A stretch of 64,000 bases of DNA from Stakelama saccharophila. Its GTDB lineage: Bacteria; Pseudomonadota; Alphaproteobacteria; Sphingomonadales; Sphingomonadaceae. A program made the position numbers and the translations under genes. Each line of letters starts with the position of its first letter. Position 1 is the first letter of the stretch. Under the pieces are notes generated by a model that saw only the letters and a program-made list of their open reading frames with translations, had not been told where the DNA came from and searched no databases. Positions 23,748 through 43,156 of this stretch are shown here, piece after piece. Location of the stretch: positions 2,089,001-2,153,000 of the forward strand of contig NZ_CP135076.1 of assembly GCF_032229225.1 (NCBI RefSeq). The letters are read 5' to 3'.

Positions 23748-23807
23748 GAGATCCCTTCCCCCCTTTGTACGGGGAGCTTGGCGGGTCCACCACGCGATGT
23801 AAAGCGC

Positions 23808-24181
23808 CAGAGGGCCTGTAAGCCGGGTTCTGTCCCCCGCCCCTGCGGGCGGATGGGCGACCATTCCTCTAGGACGATGCTTGCGCAACGCCTCCAGCAA
23901 CCAACCCGGGCGGCGGGCCGGAACAAAGCCCATATGCCGCCCCTATTCGGTCTTGCTCCCGGTGGGGTTTGCCGTGCCGCGACCGTTGCCGGCCACGCGG
24001 TGCGCTCTTACCGCACCCTTTCACCATGACGCTGCCGAAGCATTGGGCCGAAGCCGCACGCCGTCTGCTCTCTGTGGCACTTTCCCTGGGGTCGCCCCCG
24101 CCGGGCGTTACCCGGCACCGTCGCTTCCGTGGAGCCCGGACTTTCCTCGTGGGAGTTCCCACGCGGCCGCCCGGCCCTCTG
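23808..24181 (-). ncRNA. rnpB: RNase P RNA (type A)
   Basis: Read on the minus strand, the region has the universal RNase P RNA segments: GAGGAAAGTCCGGGCTCC near the 5' end and the 3' CAGAACCCGGCTTACAGGCC. The ends pair perfectly as helix P1 (CAGAGGGCC with GGCCCTCTG), which sets the limits at 24181 and 23808, about 374 nt. It is the catalytic RNA that trims tRNA 5' leaders. It lies between the TPR gene and the amidase gene, all on the minus strand. Confidence 0.96.
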
Positions 24182-24192
24182 ACACGTCCCCG

Positions 24193-34554: not shown

Positions 34555-34884
34555 TTAGAAGGGGAGCTTGAAACCAGGGGGAAGCTGCATGCCGCTGGTC
34601 ATCTTGGACATCTCCTCCTGCGAAGCGGCATCGGCCTTGGCGCGGGCGTCGTTGAAGGCGGCGATGACCAGATCCTCCAGCATGCCTTTTTCCGACGGCT
34701 GCAGCAGCGATTCGTCGATGTCCAGGCCGATGACGCGGCCCTTGGCGGACGCGCGGACCTTGACCATGCCGCCGCCGGCCGCGCCCTCCACCTCGATATC
34801 GTCGAGCTTCGACTGCGCTTCCTCAAGCTGGTTCTGGACGTTTTGCGCCATTGCCATGATGTCTTCGAGATTCTGCATCGTCAT
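34555..34884 (-). CDS. ybaB: YbaB/EbfC nucleoid-associated protein
   Basis: A 109-residue protein of the YbaB/EbfC family, which forms dimers that bind DNA and coat the nucleoid. Typical features are the N-terminal coiled helix (MAQNVQNQLEEAQSKL), the ASAKGRVIGLDIDESLL strand-turn near residue 46, the EDLVIAAFNDARAKAD helix near 70 and the Met/Gly/Pro-rich tail MTSGMQLPPGFKLPF. The start codon overlaps the dnaX stop as ATGA, the usual dnaX-ybaB arrangement. No recR follows within the window. Confidence 0.96.
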   Translation of the reverse strand: MTMQNLEDIMAMAQNVQNQLEEAQSKLDDIEVEGAAGGGMVKVRASAKGRVIGLDIDESLLQPSEKGMLEDLVIAAFNDARAKADAASQEEMSKMTSGMQLPPGFKLPF

Positions 34885-36584
34885 GCACTCCGTTTGGTCT
34901 TGTCCCAGTCGATCCGGGCGTCCGGAAAGGCCTCCAGCGCAGCGGCGACGACCGGATCGGCGCGTACCTGCGCCCGGAAATCCTCCTCGTCCTGCTGCTC
35001 GCGCTCGCGCAGCGTCGCCCCGCCCGGCGCATTGGCGGTCGCGATCTTCCAGCTCGTGCCCGTAATCTGGCGCAATTCGTTCGCGAGATCACGGGCGAAA
35101 TCGGCTGGAAGGGGCCGAGCCGCGCTGATTTCGAGTTCGGGCGGGGCGAACCGGATGGGCCGCAGGTGATTGCGCACCTGGGCCTGCATCTCGTGCCGGC
35201 CATGTTCCCCCAGCAGCGCCCATAATGCGTCCGGATCGGACGGCAGCGCCACCGGTTCGAGGCCGAGCGCGGGAGCCGGGGAAGCCGCCATATCGCCGCG
35301 CGGTGCGGCCGAGGCGGCGGACGCCCCCGCCGGCGCCCCCGCCGGGGCGACAGCCGGTGCGGCCGGAGCCGCCGTCTGCCCGCTCCCATCGGCCAGCTTG
35401 CGGGCGAGTTCGCCCGGATCCGGCAGCGTCGCGGCGTGCACGATGCGCAAGAGCGCCATCTCGCACGCCTCGATCGGCAGCGCGGCGCTCGACACCTCTT
35501 CATGCCCCTTCAACAGCAATTGCCAGAGCCGGTGCAGCATCGGATAGGAAAGCCGCGTGCCCCAATGGGCCAGCGCCTCGCGCTCCTCACCCGACAGCGC
35601 CGGATCGGGGCGGCTGCCCACCTTCGCCAGCGTCGCGCCATGCACGGTTTCGAGCAGGGTCTTCAGCACCGCCTGCGGATCGACGCCATATTCATATTGC
35701 CGGCGCAGCGCGTCCAGCACCGCCGGGGCATCGCCGGCGAGCAGCAGGCCGAACAGGTCGCGGATGGCCCCGCGATCGGACAGGCCGAGCATCTGCCGCA
35801 CCGCATCGGCACGCACGCCGCCGCCTTCCATCCCGGCATGGGCGATCGCCTGATCGAGGATCGACAGCCCATCGCGCGCCGACCCTTCGGCCGCGCGCGC
35901 CACCAGCGCCAGCGCCTCCGGCTCCGCCTCCACGCCTTCGGATTGCGCGACATGGGCGAAATGTTCGGTCAGACGATCGGCCGGAATGCGCCGCAGGTCG
36001 AAACGCTGACAGCGCGACAGCACCGTCACCGGCACCTTGTTCACCTCCGTCGTGGCGAACAGGAACTTCACATGCGCCGGCGGCTCCTCCAGCGTCTTCA
36101 AGAGGCCGTTGAACGCCTGTTTCGACAGCATGTGGACTTCGTCGATGATGTAGATCTTGTAGCGCGCCGATACGGCGGCATAGCGCGACCCTTCGATGAT
36201 CTCGCGCACATCGTCGATGCCGGTATGGCTGGCCGCGTCCATTTCGATCACGTCGATATGCCGGCCTTCGGAAATGGCGCGGCAAGGCTCGCAGACGCCG
36301 CACGGATCGATGGTCGGCCCGCCCTCGCCATCCGGCCCGACGCAATTGAGCGCCTTGGCGATCAGGCGCGCGGTCGACGTCTTGCCGACGCCGCGCACGC
36401 CGGTGAGAAGGAAGGCATGCGCCAGCCGATCGCGGCGGATCGCGTTGGCGAGCGTCGTCACCATCGCGTCCTGGCCGATCAGTTGCGAGAAGGTCTTCGG
36501 GCGATATTTGCGGGCGAGCACCTGATAGGCATCGGCCTTTTGCGGCTGCTGCGGCTCGCCGAGATCGAGGGCGGAATCGGTCAT
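34881..36584 (-). CDS. dnaX: DNA polymerase III subunit gamma/tau
   Basis: A 567-residue clamp-loader ATPase. The Walker A GVRGVGKTSTARLIAK starts near residue 62, the zinc-binding cysteines follow in NCVGPDGEGG through CGVCEPC (about 80-100), Walker B is YIIDEVHML near 146, and the SRCQRFDLRRI sensor is near 190. Domain III is followed by a Pro/Ala-rich linker (near 410-440) and a C-terminal tau part. The ATG at 36584 gives MTDSALDLGEPQQPQ before the conserved YQVLARKYRPKTF. I did not find a recognisable frameshift signal for gamma. The SRP RNA gene lies upstream and ybaB overlaps downstream. Confidence 0.97.
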   Translation of the reverse strand: MTDSALDLGEPQQPQKADAYQVLARKYRPKTFSQLIGQDAMVTTLANAIRRDRLAHAFLLTGVRGVGKTSTARLIAKALNCVGPDGEGGPTIDPCGVCEPCRAISEGRHIDVIEMDAASHTGIDDVREIIEGSRYAAVSARYKIYIIDEVHMLSKQAFNGLLKTLEEPPAHVKFLFATTEVNKVPVTVLSRCQRFDLRRIPADRLTEHFAHVAQSEGVEAEPEALALVARAAEGSARDGLSILDQAIAHAGMEGGGVRADAVRQMLGLSDRGAIRDLFGLLLAGDAPAVLDALRRQYEYGVDPQAVLKTLLETVHGATLAKVGSRPDPALSGEEREALAHWGTRLSYPMLHRLWQLLLKGHEEVSSAALPIEACEMALLRIVHAATLPDPGELARKLADGSGQTAAPAAPAVAPAGAPAGASAASAAPRGDMAASPAPALGLEPVALPSDPDALWALLGEHGRHEMQAQVRNHLRPIRFAPPELEISAARPLPADFARDLANELRQITGTSWKIATANAPGGATLREREQQDEEDFRAQVRADPVVAAALEAFPDARIDWDKTKRSA

Positions 36585-37135
36585 CACGGCCAATCTAGGC
36601 GCTCGGCCCCGCGAAGTCGAAGGGTATCGCCGCAGCCCGCACCAAACCGCCAAAGGTCGCACAGAGTCGCACCTCAACGCGGGCGCGTGCAGGTGCGCGG
36701 GTGCGCGGGTGCGCGCGCGGGAGAGTATAACCGATATCAAAGAGCAGTGCCGGTGGTGGCACAGACCGGTGGGTGTAGGAAAATGGTTTCTGCGGCCGGG
36801 CGGGTTCCGGAAGGCAGGCGGTCGGTCGGCGCCGGTCCTGCCGGACGGCGAGCGGGCGCAGCGGTGCCGCTCTTGCACAGGTGGGGCTGGTCTGTGGTGC
36901 TTCGGGCGGTGTGGGTGCGGCGAGAGACATGGGTTCCTGCCTTCGCAGGAACGACGGGTTGGGGTGCTGCCATCCACCTGCCCTCCTTTCGAGGGAGGGG
37001 ATCAAGGGATGGGTTCAGCGAAGGCGAGGCTCGATGCCTCGGCTTTGCTTTGCTTTGGCTGGCGTTGAAGCTCGCTGCGCTCGCACCCGCCCCCGACCCC
37101 TCCCTTGAAAGGGAGGGGAGAAGGCGGCGGGGGGT
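36585..37135. other. 551-base gene-free stretch upstream of dnaX
   Basis: No convincing gene. It contains an 8-base tandem TGCGCGGG repeated at 36694, 36702 and, degenerating into an alternating CG run, 36710-36720. A palindrome GTTCCTGC-cttc-GCAGGAAC is at 36934-36953, identical in its arms to the one at 4493-4512, and an imperfect ccctcctttcgagggaggg is near 36980. The dnaX and ffs promoters must be within or beside it, but I cannot place them with confidence. Confidence 0.7.
37097..37118. repeat. Palindrome CCCCTCCCTT / AAGGGAGGGG
   Basis: A 10-base perfect inverted repeat with a 2-base loop, 18 bases beyond the 3' end of ffs on its strand. It could serve as the ffs terminator, though no T-run follows. 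It belongs to the class seen at 6960-6983 and 7535-7556. Confidence 0.72.
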
Positions 37136-37224
37136 GGGAGCCGGAACGACCCGCAGCGAAATCGTTACGGCTGCTTCCTTCCGGACCTGACCGGGTTGGC
37201 GACGACTGCGTCCGCCCGACTCCC
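37136..37224 (-). ncRNA. ffs: SRP RNA (4.5S type)
   Basis: On the minus strand the diagnostic SRP domain IV reads GGTCAGGTCCGGAAGGAAGC then AGCC. The ends GGGAGTCGG and CCGGCTCCC pair over nine bases with one G-T pair, fixing the limits to about 37224 and 37136 (89 nt). The RNA binds the M domain of Ffh, whose gene is at 8134-9639. The position upstream of dnaX is seen in many bacteria, supporting the call. Confidence 0.94.
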
Positions 37225-37289
37225 GCGCGGCCATATGGTCGATCCGCTCCCCCGGCGCAAGGCCCGGATCGCGGGCGTCCCGGCTGCGC

Positions 37290-37889
37290 TCAGCGCCTCA
37301 GCGGCAGGATCACCTCGGTACGGCGCAGGCGCGCGGGCTTCATCGGCGGGTCGTAATAGGCATGTTCCGCCGTCCCCATCGGATCGTGGCCGTGCATGGC
37401 GAGCCAGTCGCGCAGTTCGCGTTCCTTGTCGCGCAGAACGGCGTCGGTGGCCTTTCCCTTGAACCGGATGACGCCGACCCGCCGCGCAGGGACGACCGCA
37501 ATTTCCACCTCCGGCGTCGGATCGGGCAGGGTTTCGCGGCGAAAGCGCGCGGGCATGACGAAGCGGGTGCGCCAGCGCCGGCTGTCGATCGCATTGTCCG
37601 ACAGCACCGGCACCGTCATCGGGATCTTCCGCCCGTCGCGGTCCTTCGCGAAGATATAGTCGGCCAGCCGGCGAAAGCCCGTCCGCAGCGACGGTTCGCG
37701 CGCGCCGGTCTCCGTGGTTTCGACGACCAGCAATTCGGGATAGTCGCGGACTTCGGCCGCGCCGTCCTTTTCGCGCACGCGGTAGTCCGGCCGCTCGACT
37801 GCGCATCCCCTGAGCTTGAAATAGCCGGCAAGGCCCGCCGCGGCGGTGAGCCCCGCGCCGAGCAACGTCCATCGGGTCTGCTTGCGCAT
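37290..37889 (-). CDS. SOUL-family heme-binding protein
   Basis: A 199-residue protein with an N-terminal membrane anchor or signal (about residues 6-24, LLGAGLTAAAGLAGYFKL) and a SOUL domain: VREKDGAAEVRDYPELLVVET near 38, then GFRRLADYIFAKDRDGRKIPMTVPV near 71 and the C-terminal AEHAYYDPP. SOUL proteins bind heme or similar tetrapyrroles; bacterial roles are poorly known. The ATG at 37889 matches the family start. It is 91 bases downstream of the HerA-like gene stop region on the opposite end of that gap and has no clear operon partner. Confidence 0.88.
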   Translation of the reverse strand: MRKQTRWTLLGAGLTAAAGLAGYFKLRGCAVERPDYRVREKDGAAEVRDYPELLVVETTETGAREPSLRTGFRRLADYIFAKDRDGRKIPMTVPVLSDNAIDSRRWRTRFVMPARFRRETLPDPTPEVEIAVVPARRVGVIRFKGKATDAVLRDKERELRDWLAMHGHDPMGTAEHAYYDPPMKPARLRRTEVILPLRR

Positions 37890-37980
37890 CCTCTCTGCCC
37901 TTTCCTTTGCCAATGCGCGACCAACGTCACGACCCGGCGGGAGTTCAACCATTTCGCACCGGCGCAGGCGGGCTGGCGCG

Positions 37981-39435
37981 TCAGACCTCGGCCGGCCGGG
38001 TGGTCCAGCCGAGATGCGGCAGGCTGATCGAGCGCTTGCCGGCGAGATCGACCCGGCTGACGAACAGGTCGCGGCTCTCGATATAGCCGAGCAGGCGGCG
38101 GACGCGACCGAGCGAGCTGGTGCCGTAGGTTTCAGCGATCTCGGCGTCGCTGGGACACGGCGCGCCCTCTCGCGCGGCGCGGGCGACGAGGAGGAACGCG
38201 CCGAGCATGTCGTCGGGCAGGCTTTCGGCCAGATCGAGCGCAGGCGCCCAATCCTCGCCCGGCGCATCGAAGATGCCGGCGCGGGCGCAGGCGAGCCGGC
38301 GGGTGAAGCCGGCGAGGTCGAGCGGCGGCGGGCTGAGCCCCTCCATCCGGCAACGGACCTGGAAATCCTGGAACAGCACGGCGGGCGCGCGATAGGCGGA
38401 ATCGGCATCGGCGACGATCGCGCGCAGCACCGACGCGGTGATCGCCGCCACCTCTTCCGGTTCCTTGTCGGGCAGCGACGGCTGCGCCGCCGGGCGCGAG
38501 GCGGCGAGCCTTTCCATGAGCGCTTCGGAAGCCGGCTGTTTCGGCGGCGCCGGCGGCGGTGGCGGTGGCGGTGGTGCCTCTTCGGCGAAAGAGAAGAGCA
38601 GTTCCTTCATGTCCTCGGGCGGCGCGTCGGGCAGCGGCGTGAGCTTGGGACTGCCGCCGCGCGCGGAGGTTTCCACCGCGCCGATGGTGACCGAGACGGC
38701 CCGGCGCGACACCGCCGGGCCGAGCGCGAGGAAGGTGCCGCGCTGCAAATCGCGGATCTGCTCGGCCTGGCGCCGCTCCATGCCGAGCAGATCGGCGGCG
38801 CGGGCCATGTCGATGTCGAGGAAGGTGCGCCCCATCAGGAAGTTCGACGCCTCGGCCGCGACATTCTTGGCGAGCTTGGCGAGGCGCTGGGTGGCGATGA
38901 TGCCGGCGAGGCCGCGCTTGCGCCCACGGCACATCAGGTTGGTCATGGCGCCCAGCGAGGCGCGGCGCACCTCTTCCGACACCTCGCCGCCGCCGGTGGG
39001 CGCGAAAAGCTGCGCCTCGTCCACGACGACGAGCACCGGATACCAATGCTCGCGCGGCGCTTCGAACATGCCGGAAAGGAAGGCGGCGGCGCAGCGCATC
39101 TGTCCTTCCGCCTCCAGCCCCTCCAGGTTGAGGATGACGGAGGCTCGGTGTTCGCGGATGCGCTCGGCCAGGGCCGCGACCTCGCGCTCGCTATGGTCCA
39201 GCCCGTCGATGACGACATGGCCATAGGGTTCGGCAAGCGTGACGAAATCGCCCTCGGGGTCGATGACGACCTGCTGCACCTGGCCGGCGCTCTTTTCGAG
39301 CAGGCGGCGCAACAGGTGCGACTTGCCGGAGCCGGAATTGCCCTGCACCAGCAGCCGCGTCGCCAGCAGTTCCTCGAGGTCGATCGGCACCGACTGGCCC
39401 GTCCGGTCGGTGCCCATGTCCACAAGAATCGTCAT
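37981..39435 (-). CDS. HerA-like DUF87 ATP-binding protein
   Basis: A 484-residue P-loop ATPase of the HerA/VirB4-related DUF87 group. Walker A is GNSGSGKSHLLRRLLE near residue 32, a conserved VVIDPEGDFVTLA follows near 56, Walker B is VLVVVDEAQLF near 133, and ATQRLAKLAKNVAAEASNFLMG is near 179. A run of seven prolines near 283 separates this from a C-terminal part with a winged-helix-like segment (CPSDAEIAETYGTSSLGRVRRLLGYIE). HerA relatives pump or remodel DNA, usually with NurA nuclease; no nurA is adjacent. The ATG at 39435 gives MTILVDMGTDRTGQ. Role here is unknown. Confidence 0.85.
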   Translation of the reverse strand: MTILVDMGTDRTGQSVPIDLEELLATRLLVQGNSGSGKSHLLRRLLEKSAGQVQQVVIDPEGDFVTLAEPYGHVVIDGLDHSEREVAALAERIREHRASVILNLEGLEAEGQMRCAAAFLSGMFEAPREHWYPVLVVVDEAQLFAPTGGGEVSEEVRRASLGAMTNLMCRGRKRGLAGIIATQRLAKLAKNVAAEASNFLMGRTFLDIDMARAADLLGMERRQAEQIRDLQRGTFLALGPAVSRRAVSVTIGAVETSARGGSPKLTPLPDAPPEDMKELLFSFAEEAPPPPPPPPAPPKQPASEALMERLAASRPAAQPSLPDKEPEEVAAITASVLRAIVADADSAYRAPAVLFQDFQVRCRMEGLSPPPLDLAGFTRRLACARAGIFDAPGEDWAPALDLAESLPDDMLGAFLLVARAAREGAPCPSDAEIAETYGTSSLGRVRRLLGYIESRDLFVSRVDLAGKRSISLPHLGWTTRPAEV

Positions 39436-39544
39436 CGGGTCGCTTTTGGCCGATGGGGTGTGGGAGGGGCAAGGGTGCACATGCGCGCGATTGTCGTGGC
39501 GGCGCGGATGACGCTGTGTCGCCCCTGTGTCGAGCAGAGCCCGC

Positions 39545-39615
39545 GTTCCTGCGGATGCGGGAACCCAGAGCTGCAAGCGCTGTGCCCGAAGCTCTGGGCT
39601 GCTGCCTGCGCAGGA
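39545..39615. repeat. Dispersed double-hairpin repeat, family A, copy 3
   Basis: GTTCCTGC-ggat-GCGGGAAC (39545-39564, one mismatch) is followed by CCCAGAGC (39564-39571) and its inverse GCTCTGGG (39591-39598) around the core tgcaagcgctgtgcccgaa, then cctgcgcagg. The layout equals that of the copies at 4440 and 34411. It lies between the HerA-like gene and the beta-lactamase gene. Confidence 0.78.
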
Positions 39616-39677
39616 GCACGAGGATGGCGGCAGGCACGTCGACTCCGCCTTCCCTGCGGAGACGCGATGAAGGCCGT

Positions 39678-40550
39678 TCAGCGCTGGGCGAAGAGGCGGC
39701 CGACGAGCGAGCCGACGCGCTGGTGGGCCTTGTTCGCGGCCTCCGCGTCCAGCCCCGGCGCGTCGAGATAGCAGGCGATCAGGATCGGCTTGCGGCCCGG
39801 CGGATAGGCGATCGCCACATCGTTGAAATTGTGCGCCCCCGTGCCCGTCTTGTCGCCCACGCGCCAATCGTCGGGAAGGCGGGCGCGCAGGCGCTGGTCG
39901 CCGGTCCTGCTCGCGACCATCCAGCCGATCAGCTTTTCACGCGATTGCGGCGTCAGGACATTGCCGACCAGCAGGTCCTGCATCAGCGTGACCATGGCGC
40001 CGGGCGTCGTGGTGTCGCGCGGGTCGTCGGGCTTCACATCGTTGAGGTCGGGCTCCGGCCGGTCGAGGCGGGTGATCTGATCGCCCTGTTCGCGGATGAA
40101 GCGGGTCAGGCCGCCCGGTCCGCCGACCTGCGGCAACAGGAGGTTGGCGGCGCTGTTGTCGCTCAGTTCGACAGCGGCCTGGGCGAGCTGTTCGACTGTC
40201 ATGCCGCCCTGGGCGAGATTGGCCTTCACCACGGGCGCATAGTCCAGAAGATCGGCCTGGCCGAACTTCACCTGGCGATCCAGCGGCAGGTCGCCGCGCT
40301 GCGCCTTCACCAGCACCGCGGCGGCGAGCAGGATCTTGAAGGTGGAGCACAGCGCGAAGCGTTCCTGCGCATTCCACAGCAGGCGGTGGCCGTTGCCGGT
40401 GTCGATCGCGGCGATGCCGAGCCGGCCGCCCGAGCTGCGCTCCAGCACGTCGAAGATCGACTTGCGGGCCTGGCCGAATAGGGGCGTGGCGGCGGTGAAG
40501 CCGAGCGCGCCGGCGCCGGCGATCCAGTGTCTGCGGTTGATCATGGTCAT
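39678..40550 (-). CDS. bla: Class A beta-lactamase, Tat-exported
   Basis: A 290-residue serine beta-lactamase. By chance its own numbering fits the Ambler scheme closely: Ser69-Thr-Phe-Lys72, Ser130-Asp-Asn132, Glu166-x-x-x-Asn170 (EPDLN) and Lys234-Thr-Gly236, so all catalytic elements are intact. The N-terminus NRRHWIAGAGALGFTAATPLFGQA is a twin-arginine signal. A Cys precedes the catalytic Ser, but no Cys follows KTG, so the carbapenemase-type disulfide seems absent. The ATG at 40550 overlaps the ferredoxin stop codon as ATGA, so it is translated as the last gene of an iron-sulfur operon. No regulator of the AmpR type is adjacent. Substrate range cannot be read from sequence. Confidence 0.95.
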   Translation of the reverse strand: MTMINRRHWIAGAGALGFTAATPLFGQARKSIFDVLERSSGGRLGIAAIDTGNGHRLLWNAQERFALCSTFKILLAAAVLVKAQRGDLPLDRQVKFGQADLLDYAPVVKANLAQGGMTVEQLAQAAVELSDNSAANLLLPQVGGPGGLTRFIREQGDQITRLDRPEPDLNDVKPDDPRDTTTPGAMVTLMQDLLVGNVLTPQSREKLIGWMVASRTGDQRLRARLPDDWRVGDKTGTGAHNFNDVAIAYPPGRKPILIACYLDAPGLDAEAANKAHQRVGSLVGRLFAQR

Positions 40551-40882
40551 CGTCCCTGCATGTCGTGGGCCTCGGCCGGGATGCGCACGGTGAGGCCGTC
40601 GAGATGGTCGGTGAGTTCGATCTGACAGGCAAGCCGGCTGGTGCGCGCGGCCCCGGCGGCGAGATCGAGCATATCCTCTTCCTCTTCGCTGGCGGGCGGC
40701 AGCTTTCCGAAATCCTCGGCCGCGACGATCACATGGCAGGTGGAGCAGGCCATCTGCCCCTCGCACGTGCCCTCCAGCGGCTGCCCCTCGCCCTGTGCCA
40801 CGCGGAGCAGCGTGTCGCCGGGCGCGGCCGTCGTCTCGCGCACCTGCTCGCCGTCGCGTTCGATGAAGCGCACGCGGATCAT
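40547..40882 (-). CDS. 2Fe-2S ferredoxin (adrenodoxin type)
   Basis: A 111-residue ferredoxin with cluster cysteines at 40, 46, 49 and 86 (C-x5-C-x2-C-x36-C, in GTCEGQMACSTCH and RLACQIE). This spacing is that of vertebrate-type/adrenodoxin-like ferredoxins such as Isc Fdx or FdxB. It is likely an electron donor for iron-sulfur assembly or for an oxygenase; the upstream desulfurases favour the first. The start overlaps the desulfurase stop and its stop overlaps the bla start, both as ATGA. Confidence 0.93.
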   Translation of the reverse strand: MIRVRFIERDGEQVRETTAAPGDTLLRVAQGEGQPLEGTCEGQMACSTCHVIVAAEDFGKLPPASEEEEDMLDLAAGAARTSRLACQIELTDHLDGLTVRIPAEAHDMQGR

Positions 40883-41973
40883 GCGTTCTGCACCTGCATT
40901 GCGGCGGCCCGTTCGATCCGGTCGAGTGCGTTCACCAAGTCTTCCCTTTCCGTATAGCGGCCGAAGCCGAGGCGGATGCTCGACCGCGCCTCGGCGTCGG
41001 TCAAGCCGATCGCGCGCAGCACATGGCTCGACCGTCCCGATCCGCTGGCGCAGGCCGATCCGGCCGAAAAGGCGATGTCGCGCAGTTCGCTCATCAGCCG
41101 GTTCACGTCGAGCCCCTCGCGGCGGATATTGAGGTTGCCGCAGTAGCGCCGATCGACTGAACCGTTGATGACCCAGGCCGGATCGAGCCGCGCCGTGGCG
41201 GCCTCGAACAGACGGGCGACATGGGCGGCATCGGCATCGCGGCGCTCCGCCGCCAGTACCGCGGCAGCGCCGAAGCCGGCACAGAGCGCGGGCGACAGCG
41301 TGCCGGAGCGGCCGCCCGCCTCCTGTCCGCCGCCGTGGAGCAGCGGCGCGAGCGTGACGCCGTCCCGGATCCACAGCGCGCCGATGCCTTTCGGCCCGTG
41401 GATCTTGTGCGCCGACAGCGCGATCAGGTCGCAGCCTTGCGGAATATCGACGCGGCCATAGCCCTGCACCGCATCGCACAGCATCCGTGCGCCGGCCGCG
41501 TGCGCCAGTTCGGCGAGATCGGCGACGGGCTGAATCGTGCCGATCTCGTTGTTGACCAGCATCGCCTCGACCAGTGCGGTGCCGGGGACGATCGCATCGC
41601 GCGCGGCGTCCATATCGACCAGACCGTCGCGGTCGACGGGCAGAATGACGATCTCGCGGCCCTGAGCGCGCAACGCCCCAACCGTGTCGAGCACCGCGGC
41701 ATGTTCGCTGGCGATGGTGACGATACGCCCCTGCCCCGCCCCCTTCAGCGCCCAGTTGAGCGCCTCGGTCGCGCCGCTGGTGAAGGCGAGCGTGCCGCCG
41801 GTCGGAAGCAGCGCCGCGACCTGATCGCGCGCGACCTCGATCGCCGCGCGCGCGCTGCGGCCGGCGGCGTGGGCCGAATGCGGATTGGCGTGCTGGCGCT
41901 CCAGCCAGGGCAGCATCGCGGCGAGCGCTCGCGGTGCCAGCGGCGTCGTCGCCTGATAGTCGCAATAGATCAT
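40879..41973 (-). CDS. Cysteine desulfurase, IscS/NifS class (second copy)
   Basis: A 364-residue PLP enzyme that removes sulfur from cysteine. The PLP lysine is Lys190 in LSAHKIHGPKGIG, the stacking His is in ASEHAAVL near residue 91, and the catalytic Cys308 lies in SAGSACASGSGRSSHVL, with the flexible loop typical of IscS/NifS group I. It is very close in plan to the gene immediately upstream but not identical, so the pair is an old duplication or two specialised enzymes. Overlaps at both ends are ATGA. Confidence 0.93.
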   Translation of the reverse strand: MIYCDYQATTPLAPRALAAMLPWLERQHANPHSAHAAGRSARAAIEVARDQVAALLPTGGTLAFTSGATEALNWALKGAGQGRIVTIASEHAAVLDTVGALRAQGREIVILPVDRDGLVDMDAARDAIVPGTALVEAMLVNNEIGTIQPVADLAELAHAAGARMLCDAVQGYGRVDIPQGCDLIALSAHKIHGPKGIGALWIRDGVTLAPLLHGGGQEAGGRSGTLSPALCAGFGAAAVLAAERRDADAAHVARLFEAATARLDPAWVINGSVDRRYCGNLNIRREGLDVNRLMSELRDIAFSAGSACASGSGRSSHVLRAIGLTDAEARSSIRLGFGRYTEREDLVNALDRIERAAAMQVQNA

Positions 41974-43061
41974 GCCGCCCGGCTCCGCGCGTCCTGTGCG
42001 ATCCCGGTCCACGCTTCGGCGAAACGGGCGATGTCGCCGGGCGTGGTGGTCCAGCCGACGCTCACCCGGATCGCGCTGTCGGCCAGATCGGCCGGCGCGC
42101 GGATCGCATCGAGCACATGGCTGGTCTTGAGCGAGCCCGAGGAACAGGCGCTGCCGGCGGAGACCGCGATGCCGGCGAGGTCGAACCGGATGAGCTGCGC
42201 CGCGGCCTTCATGCCGGGCATGGCGATGGAAAGAATAGCCGCCGGCCGGCCGGGATCGGCGAGCACCGTGCCGCCCTGGTCGGCGACCTTCATCCTGAGG
42301 TCGAGCAGCGCCGGCTGCAGCTCGGCGAGCCATGCCGCCGTGCCGTCGTCCAGGCGATCCGCCGCCTCCAGCGCCGCGGCCATGGCGAGCGCGCCGGGCA
42401 GGTTCTCGGTGCCGCCGCGATAGCCGAATTCCTGCCCGCCCGTGGCCCGCAGCATGGCGAAGTCGCGCACCAGCAGCGCGCCGATGCCGGGCGGGCCGCC
42501 GAATTTATGCGCGGAAACAGCCATGAGATCCGCATCGGGCAGCGGCACCTTTCCGGCAGACTGGGCGCAATCGGCGAAGAGCAGACCGCCGGCGTCGCGG
42601 ACGATCGCCGCGATGCCCGCCAGATCCTGCGCGGTGCCGAGTTCGGAATTGACCGCCTGGACCGCCACCAGCGGCCGTTCGCCGCGCCCGACGACGGCGG
42701 CGAGAACATCCATGTCGAGGGCGCCGTTCGGCCTTACCGGCAGGCGGGTGGCGTCGCCCGCCGCGCGCAGGACCGAATCGTGTTCGATGGCGCTCACGGC
42801 GCGGCCGGTGCAATCGGCGTGTGCAAGCGCGATGGCGATGGACTCGGTCGCGCCGCTGGTGAAGATCAGTTCGCCGTCCCAATCAAGGACGGACCGGATC
42901 CGTGCCCGCGCATCCTCCAGCGCGGCGCGCGCGGCGCGGCCGGCGGCGTGCGGCGAGGACGGATTGGCCCAGTCCCGCAGCCCTTCGGCCACCGCCGCCT
43001 GCGCTTCGGGCCGGACGGGCGTGGTGGCGGCATGGTCGAGATGGGTGCGCTCAGCCACCAT
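41970..43061 (-). CDS. Cysteine desulfurase-like PLP aminotransferase class V (first copy)
   Basis: A 363-residue PLP enzyme of the NifS family. Lys186 in VSAHKFGGPPGIG carries PLP, His94 in AIEHDSVL is present, and Cys306 sits in SAGSACSSGSLKTSHVL, so it should be active. It differs from the downstream copy in length of the mid-region and in several loop residues. Together with that copy and the ferredoxin it forms a compact sulfur-transfer operon; no iscU, iscA or hscBA gene is in view. It diverges from the alpha/beta hydrolase gene at 43157 across 95 bases, which must hold both promoters. Confidence 0.92.
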   Translation of the reverse strand: MVAERTHLDHAATTPVRPEAQAAVAEGLRDWANPSSPHAAGRAARAALEDARARIRSVLDWDGELIFTSGATESIAIALAHADCTGRAVSAIEHDSVLRAAGDATRLPVRPNGALDMDVLAAVVGRGERPLVAVQAVNSELGTAQDLAGIAAIVRDAGGLLFADCAQSAGKVPLPDADLMAVSAHKFGGPPGIGALLVRDFAMLRATGGQEFGYRGGTENLPGALAMAAALEAADRLDDGTAAWLAELQPALLDLRMKVADQGGTVLADPGRPAAILSIAMPGMKAAAQLIRFDLAGIAVSAGSACSSGSLKTSHVLDAIRAPADLADSAIRVSVGWTTTPGDIARFAEAWTGIAQDARSRAA

Positions 43062-43156
43062 GGGTTCCGATGATTGCGCGGATCGTCACCGGGCCTATAT
43101 AGCGCCTGTGTTTTCGCGTACCACCGCGCCTATCCTATCCTTGCCAGCAGGTACTG

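Follow-up and report, generated by a model that had tools for sequence, protein, structure and literature searches.

A class A beta-lactamase gene in a cysteine desulfurase-ferredoxin operon of Stakelama saccharophila and other sphingomonads

Why does a beta-lactamase gene stand at the end of an operon for cysteine desulfurases and a ferredoxin? The question is raised by a locus of Stakelama saccharophila, which we analyzed within a window of 64,000 nucleotides (GCF_032229225.1, contig NZ_CP135076.1, positions 2,089,001 to 2,153,000; coordinates below are those of the window). Four genes on the minus strand follow one another in the order nifS1-nifS2-fdx-bla, and all three junctions are ATGA stop/start overlaps, an arrangement that the original prediction, made from the DNA letters, had described and that the coordinates bear out. 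We consider it probable (about 0.8) that bla is a resident, intrinsic class A beta-lactamase gene expressed with the nifS-fdx operon through readthrough and translational coupling. The observations behind this reading are the sequence, the gene order and overlaps, the family and residues of the enzyme, their conservation, a protein tree, and the lack of a LysR neighbour. The four genes are as follows.

41970..43061, minus strand: nifS1, NifS/IscS-like cysteine desulfurase, 363 amino acids (Aminotran_5, 131 bits; FeS_nifS model below its cut-off)
40879..41973, minus strand: nifS2, NifS/IscS-like cysteine desulfurase, 364 amino acids (Aminotran_5, 197 bits); ATGA overlap with nifS1
40547..40882, minus strand: fdx, [2Fe-2S] ferredoxin of the iron-sulfur cluster (ISC)/adrenodoxin type, 111 amino acids (Fer2, 37 bits, cut-off 21); ATGA overlap with nifS2
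39678..40550, minus strand: bla, class A serine beta-lactamase with a twin-arginine leader, 290 amino acids; ATGA overlap with fdx

The ferredoxin has the cysteine pattern C-x5-C-x2-C...C and scored 70 bits on the fdx_isc model (ISC Fdx), below the cut-off of 132. An alternative ATG at 40544 would give a bla product of 288 amino acids instead of the 290 read from the ATG on the fdx stop codon. The source genome is complete in one contig of 3.19 Mb and carries the nifS1-nifS2-fdx-bla stretch once. Since sufB, a SUF gene, lies about 1.18 Mb away, nifS1-nifS2-fdx is a separate desulfurase-ferredoxin operon.

Family, residues and fold of the beta-lactamase

The bla protein scored 297.2 bits on NF033103 (class A beta-lactamase), passing the curated cut-off of 200, and 158 bits on Pfam Beta-lactamase2. 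Across 20 aligned rows, of which 18 are fdx-linked and 2 unlinked, Ser67, Lys70, Asp129, Asn130, Glu164, Asn168, Asp177, and Lys232-Thr233-Gly234 were invariant, and Ser128 and Arg162 were kept at 90% or more, which upheld the earlier statement that the catalytic residues are intact. The catalytic set S67, K70, S128, D129, N130, E164, and K232-T-G was invariant throughout an 18-row alignment. In standard numbering we take Ser67, Lys70, Ser128, Asp129, Asn130, Arg162, Glu164, Asn168, and Asp177 to be residues 70, 73, 130, 131, 132, 164, 166, 170, and 179, respectively, and Lys232-Thr233-Gly234 to be 234-236. The leader, RRHWIAGAGALGF, has a hydrophobic stretch after its twin arginine, and Arg4-Arg5 was invariant in the 20 rows; the twin-arginine translocation (Tat) signal noticed earlier is thus present, and export itself is predicted. 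An AlphaFold2 model had a predicted local distance difference test (pLDDT) score of 90.4 and matched solved class A enzymes with a TMt of 0.95, a root-mean-square deviation of 0.9 Å, and up to 53% identity. Judged by its sequence, the bla product is an intact and normal class A serine beta-lactamase, and hydrolytic activity is predicted.

Among the named families, SGM (NF000512) gave the best score for the window enzyme, 276.9 bits. Because this is below the cut-off of 500, we regard the enzyme as a relative of SGM rather than a member. On other NCBIfam models the enzyme reached 257 bits for L2 and 246 bits for PEN-Bcc, again below the cut-offs. The nearest named relative that we found was Stakelama marina, the bla protein of which is 73% identical.

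It had also been suggested that the protein has a housekeeping role in wall metabolism, that is, that it is a peptidase or carboxypeptidase of the beta-lactamase fold tied to iron-sulfur (Fe-S) metabolism. An old, conserved place in a housekeeping operon would suit such a role, as would the selection acting on the gene: the ratio of nonsynonymous to synonymous substitution (dN/dS) was 0.07-0.17 for the eight closest bla pairs and 0.08-0.16 for the eight closest nifS2 pairs, and close bla pairs are under purifying selection. However, the residues of hydrolysis, namely the equivalents of Glu166, Asn170, Arg164, and Asp179, have been retained alongside the Ser70, Ser130, and Lys234 motifs, and one linked relative is itself an SGM-family beta-lactamase. 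Moreover, bla is not at the fdx site in most relatives and is therefore not essential. On this evidence, we think a housekeeping enzyme very unlikely.

Linkage in relatives and history of the fdx site

Of 201 genomes sampled from the genus, 196 yielded nifS2 and 200 gave a hit to the bla protein at an E value of 0.001; many of these hits are weak and probably not class A. Thirty loci, including the window, were fetched around bla matches; nifS2, fdx, and bla were adjacent on one strand in 26, and every fetched locus with a bla identity of at least 50% was linked. The figure of 26 linked genomes among 201 is a lower bound, the place of nifS2 not being listed for some of the weaker bla matches. 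Five further matches of 51-54% with shorter spans, outside the fetched loci and at coordinates away from nifS2, occurred in genomes G029, G032, G107, G115, and G169. That of G169 (C2:780834-781546) is in two pieces and is perhaps a decaying copy.

The start of bla possibly overlaps the fdx stop codon in 16 of the 26 linked genus genomes and lies 1-5 nucleotides after it in 7; in the others it is 11 (one genome) or 256 and 587 nucleotides (two genomes) past the stop, so that 24 of the 26 fall within 11 nucleotides. Across these genomes, the placement of bla at the fdx stop exceeds chance.

The linkage extends beyond the genus. A family sample of 149 genomes contained eight cases linked by coordinates, two from the genus and six from four other genus codes, and the link in these six was confirmed on fetched loci. 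Among 80 loci on GTDB contigs, nine were linked, all from sphingomonads (three Stakelama, Sphingomonas parva, Hephaestia caeni, Sphingobium chungbukense, and three others). The S. chungbukense gene, at the nifS-nifS-fdx site, scored 505.8 bits on the SGM model, above the cut-off of 500. Seven other families of the order (73 genomes) yielded six class A matches at an E value of 1e-45, none of them near nifS2. In a plasmid search, all matches among those listed (at least 5000 records) were below 60% identity, the best rows being Azospirillum megaplasmids, and there was no sign among them of a mobile copy of this bla lineage.

These results bear on whether bla came to lie behind fdx in this strain only, by recent horizontal insertion or misassembly. 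Most genus genomes have no bla seen at the site and the contents of the gap downstream of fdx differ between genomes, as a recent insertion would have it, but the same junction recurs in at least 26 of the 201 genus genomes, in other genera, and in independent assemblies; moreover, the genome is a complete single contig and bla has diverged in step with nifS2. The thought that the overlap might be a misassembly is contradicted by the same arrangement across five genus codes and Sphingobium. We give an event confined to this strain almost no credence. The comparison of gene order in the 3' flank of fdx, proposed with the original prediction, was decisive here: the linkage recurs in relatives and is neither accidental nor recent.

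The point of entry was located by comparing 38 fetched loci without linked bla and 31 with it. Relatives without bla have the order fdx-ffs-dnaX-ybaB, where ffs encodes the signal recognition particle (SRP) RNA; ffs lay 33-907 nucleotides past fdx in 34 of the 38 loci, and dnaX was within 4.5 kb in 33. In loci with bla, ffs was found in 29 of 31, at a median of 1000 nucleotides past fdx, which roughly equals the length of bla; dnaX was within 4.5 kb in 20. From this spacing with and without the gene, we conclude that bla was inserted into the fdx-ffs gap. The earlier idea that bla joined the operon by recombination therefore holds as far as addition is concerned, relatives without bla having fdx before ffs-dnaX, whereas nothing points to a recent recombination. 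The window retains this frame in the order fdx, bla, HerA-like ATPase, SOUL protein, ffs, dnaX, and ybaB, with the following features after bla.

37981..39435, minus strand: HerA-like ATPase (DUF87), next after bla in the window and in some relatives
37290..37979, minus strand: SOUL haem-binding family protein (PF04832, 132 bits)
37130..37227, minus strand: ffs, small SRP RNA (RF00169, 60.6 bits)
34881..36977, minus strand: dnaX, DNA polymerase III gamma/tau (bounds of the longest open reading frame; tblastn match 36584-34890)
34558..34878, minus strand: ybaB/ebfC (tblastn match)

The fdx-ffs gap (window 37130-40547; loci L145-L204) is a cargo site with varied genes in different sphingomonads, including those for the beta-lactamase, the HerA-like ATPase, the SOUL protein, a small membrane protein, and small arginine-rich proteins that look secreted. 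We also searched for bla remnants in empty sites by running tblastn with 38 linked proteins as queries on the 2.5 kb past fdx in the 38 loci without bla. The strong matches all came from an over-long translation of L030 running into the SRP RNA gene, the others were at chance level, and the candidates were rejected. Elsewhere in the window, a class A RNase P RNA gene lies at 23803-24182 on the minus strand.

The more careful of the two bla trees comprises 59 proteins. In it, one side of a single branch (94/86) holds 29 linked rows together with L128, which is unlinked, and the linked/unlinked label needs 2 changes compared with 20 in shuffles; a quick tree of 135 bla rows, 38 of them linked, needs 4. 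Over 38 loci, protein distances of bla and nifS2 correlated with r = 0.83, a value reached by none of 999 permutations, and those of nifS2 and fdx with r = 0.77. The branch grouping and the correlation of bla with nifS2 favour a single entry, after which bla was inherited together with the operon. Two single loci deserve mention. The bla of L128 (genome G330) is unlinked but falls among linked genes in the careful tree; it probably moved out of the operon. In Sphingomonas parva (L048, 5373-7016), bla stands at the fdx site and is grouped inside the linked rows of the careful tree; only part of nifS2 is matched at this locus, and ffs is matched on the opposite strand.

Expression and control

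Some chromosomal class A enzymes (L2, PEN, and similar ones) have a divergent LysR (AmpR-type) regulator. No LysR gene was found within 2.5 kb of bla in any of the 38 linked loci, some of which had a flank of only 1.5 kb. Among 97 unlinked bla genes, 24 had a LysR gene beside them, divergent in all 24 (one sample was checked in Pfam). Because no dedicated regulator gene lies near bla, we infer that it is probably co-transcribed with nifS1-nifS2-fdx and translated by ribosomes finishing fdx. A scan of the region for terminators gave one terminator-like site, no more than expected by chance.

Upstream of the operon, the gap between nifS1 and a divergent alpha/beta hydrolase gene contains one further feature.

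43095..43102, no strand assigned: CTATATAG palindrome, candidate -10 element

This is the sole copy of CTATATAG in the window, and none arose in 100 shuffles. In the intergenic sequences of 69 loci, most relatives retain the palindrome next to a GCAAT block, whether they have bla or lack it, and it is possibly the -10 element of the alpha/beta hydrolase promoter. As the palindrome is kept whether or not bla is present, bla would have joined an existing control. At the other end of the operon, the C-terminus of fdx (-MQGR) is encoded by a sequence resembling a Shine-Dalgarno site before bla. We considered the fdx tail as a ribosome-binding sequence tuned for bla and rejected it, since 38 fdx tails without bla have nearly the same codons.

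These data fit the following course of events. A class A bla gene would have inserted between fdx and ffs long ago, within the family, with its start codon at or on the fdx stop, and would since have been inherited with the operon, with many losses or moves. Its expression would be basal, at a level set by the nifS-fdx operon. The protein would fold in the cytoplasm before Tat export and would hydrolyze beta-lactams in the periplasm through a Ser70 acyl-enzyme and a water molecule activated by Glu166.

Several observations weigh against this account. We found no consensus sigma-70 promoter in the region, and a separate internal promoter for bla is possible. The mean duplex energy of the fdx tail was -4.4 kcal/mol in 38 loci without bla versus -5.4 kcal/mol in 38 with it (p 0.059); as the Shine-Dalgarno-like tail is thus no stronger with bla, there is no evidence that coupling was selected. 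On a tree of nifS2 plus fdx (75 loci), the linked state is patchy, with 11 changes compared with 25 in shuffles; bla may have been lost repeatedly, or sphingomonads may have exchanged it by way of the conserved flanks. The Sphingomonas parva bla stands apart from the other linked rows in the 135-row quick tree. Finally, the median dN/dS was 0.47 over all 491 bla pairs with dS below 1.2, a value that saturation may inflate.

The linkage might instead be regulatory, with the level of bla following Fe-S or sulfur status, or redox stress caused by beta-lactams. The linked genes do without the LysR regulator seen in many unlinked relatives, and in Comamonas testosteroni IscR binds the czoR-czoA region and an iscR deletion lowers czoA expression (PMC5744064); this precedent lends plausibility only and no direct support here. 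On the other side, the linked state is often lost and the upstream gap is alike with or without bla, so that no bla-specific control is visible. We therefore hold a regulatory link to be unlikely. It is similarly doubtful that the sphingomonad bla is now a true member of an Fe-S operon, its level set by Fe-S or redox status and not by AmpR sensing of wall fragments. If it were, iron limitation or oxidative stress alone would shift intrinsic beta-lactam tolerance.

Comparison with known systems

The enzyme family is known and the enzyme is ordinary; its conserved operon context is modestly surprising. We found no description of an fdx-linked bla in the open-access papers searched, a scope outside which subscription papers mostly fall. 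Taking the resident, operon-borne gene as the preferred reading, the locus provides the intrinsic class A enzymes of sphingomonads, including relatives of SGM, with a place on the chromosome and an evolutionary past. It suggests that the enzymes at the fdx site are expressed without AmpR-type induction, and in resistome surveys such genes should be counted as resident and not as acquired. The fdx-linked bla also offers a simple test case for the relation between Fe-S status and beta-lactam susceptibility.

Compared with chromosomal enzymes of the L2 and PEN type, the linked enzymes are likewise class A but differ in that a LysR gene adjoins none of the 38. The closest known family is SGM (NF000512; SGM-1 of Sphingobium), which is also class A. 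The SGM-family gene of S. chungbukense shares both the nifS-nifS-fdx site and the linked part of the 59-protein tree with the window bla, whereas the window enzyme, at 277 bits, stays well short of the family cut-off of 500. SGM-1 is mentioned in PMC8300632, and blaSGM is named in a table of PMC11939749. CzoA (PMC5744064) is a class A enzyme as well, and the tie to Fe-S regulation belongs to CzoA: there the regulator binds a separate, divergent czoR-czoA pair, whereas the bla gene of the window lies inside the desulfurase-ferredoxin operon itself, with no LysR neighbour.

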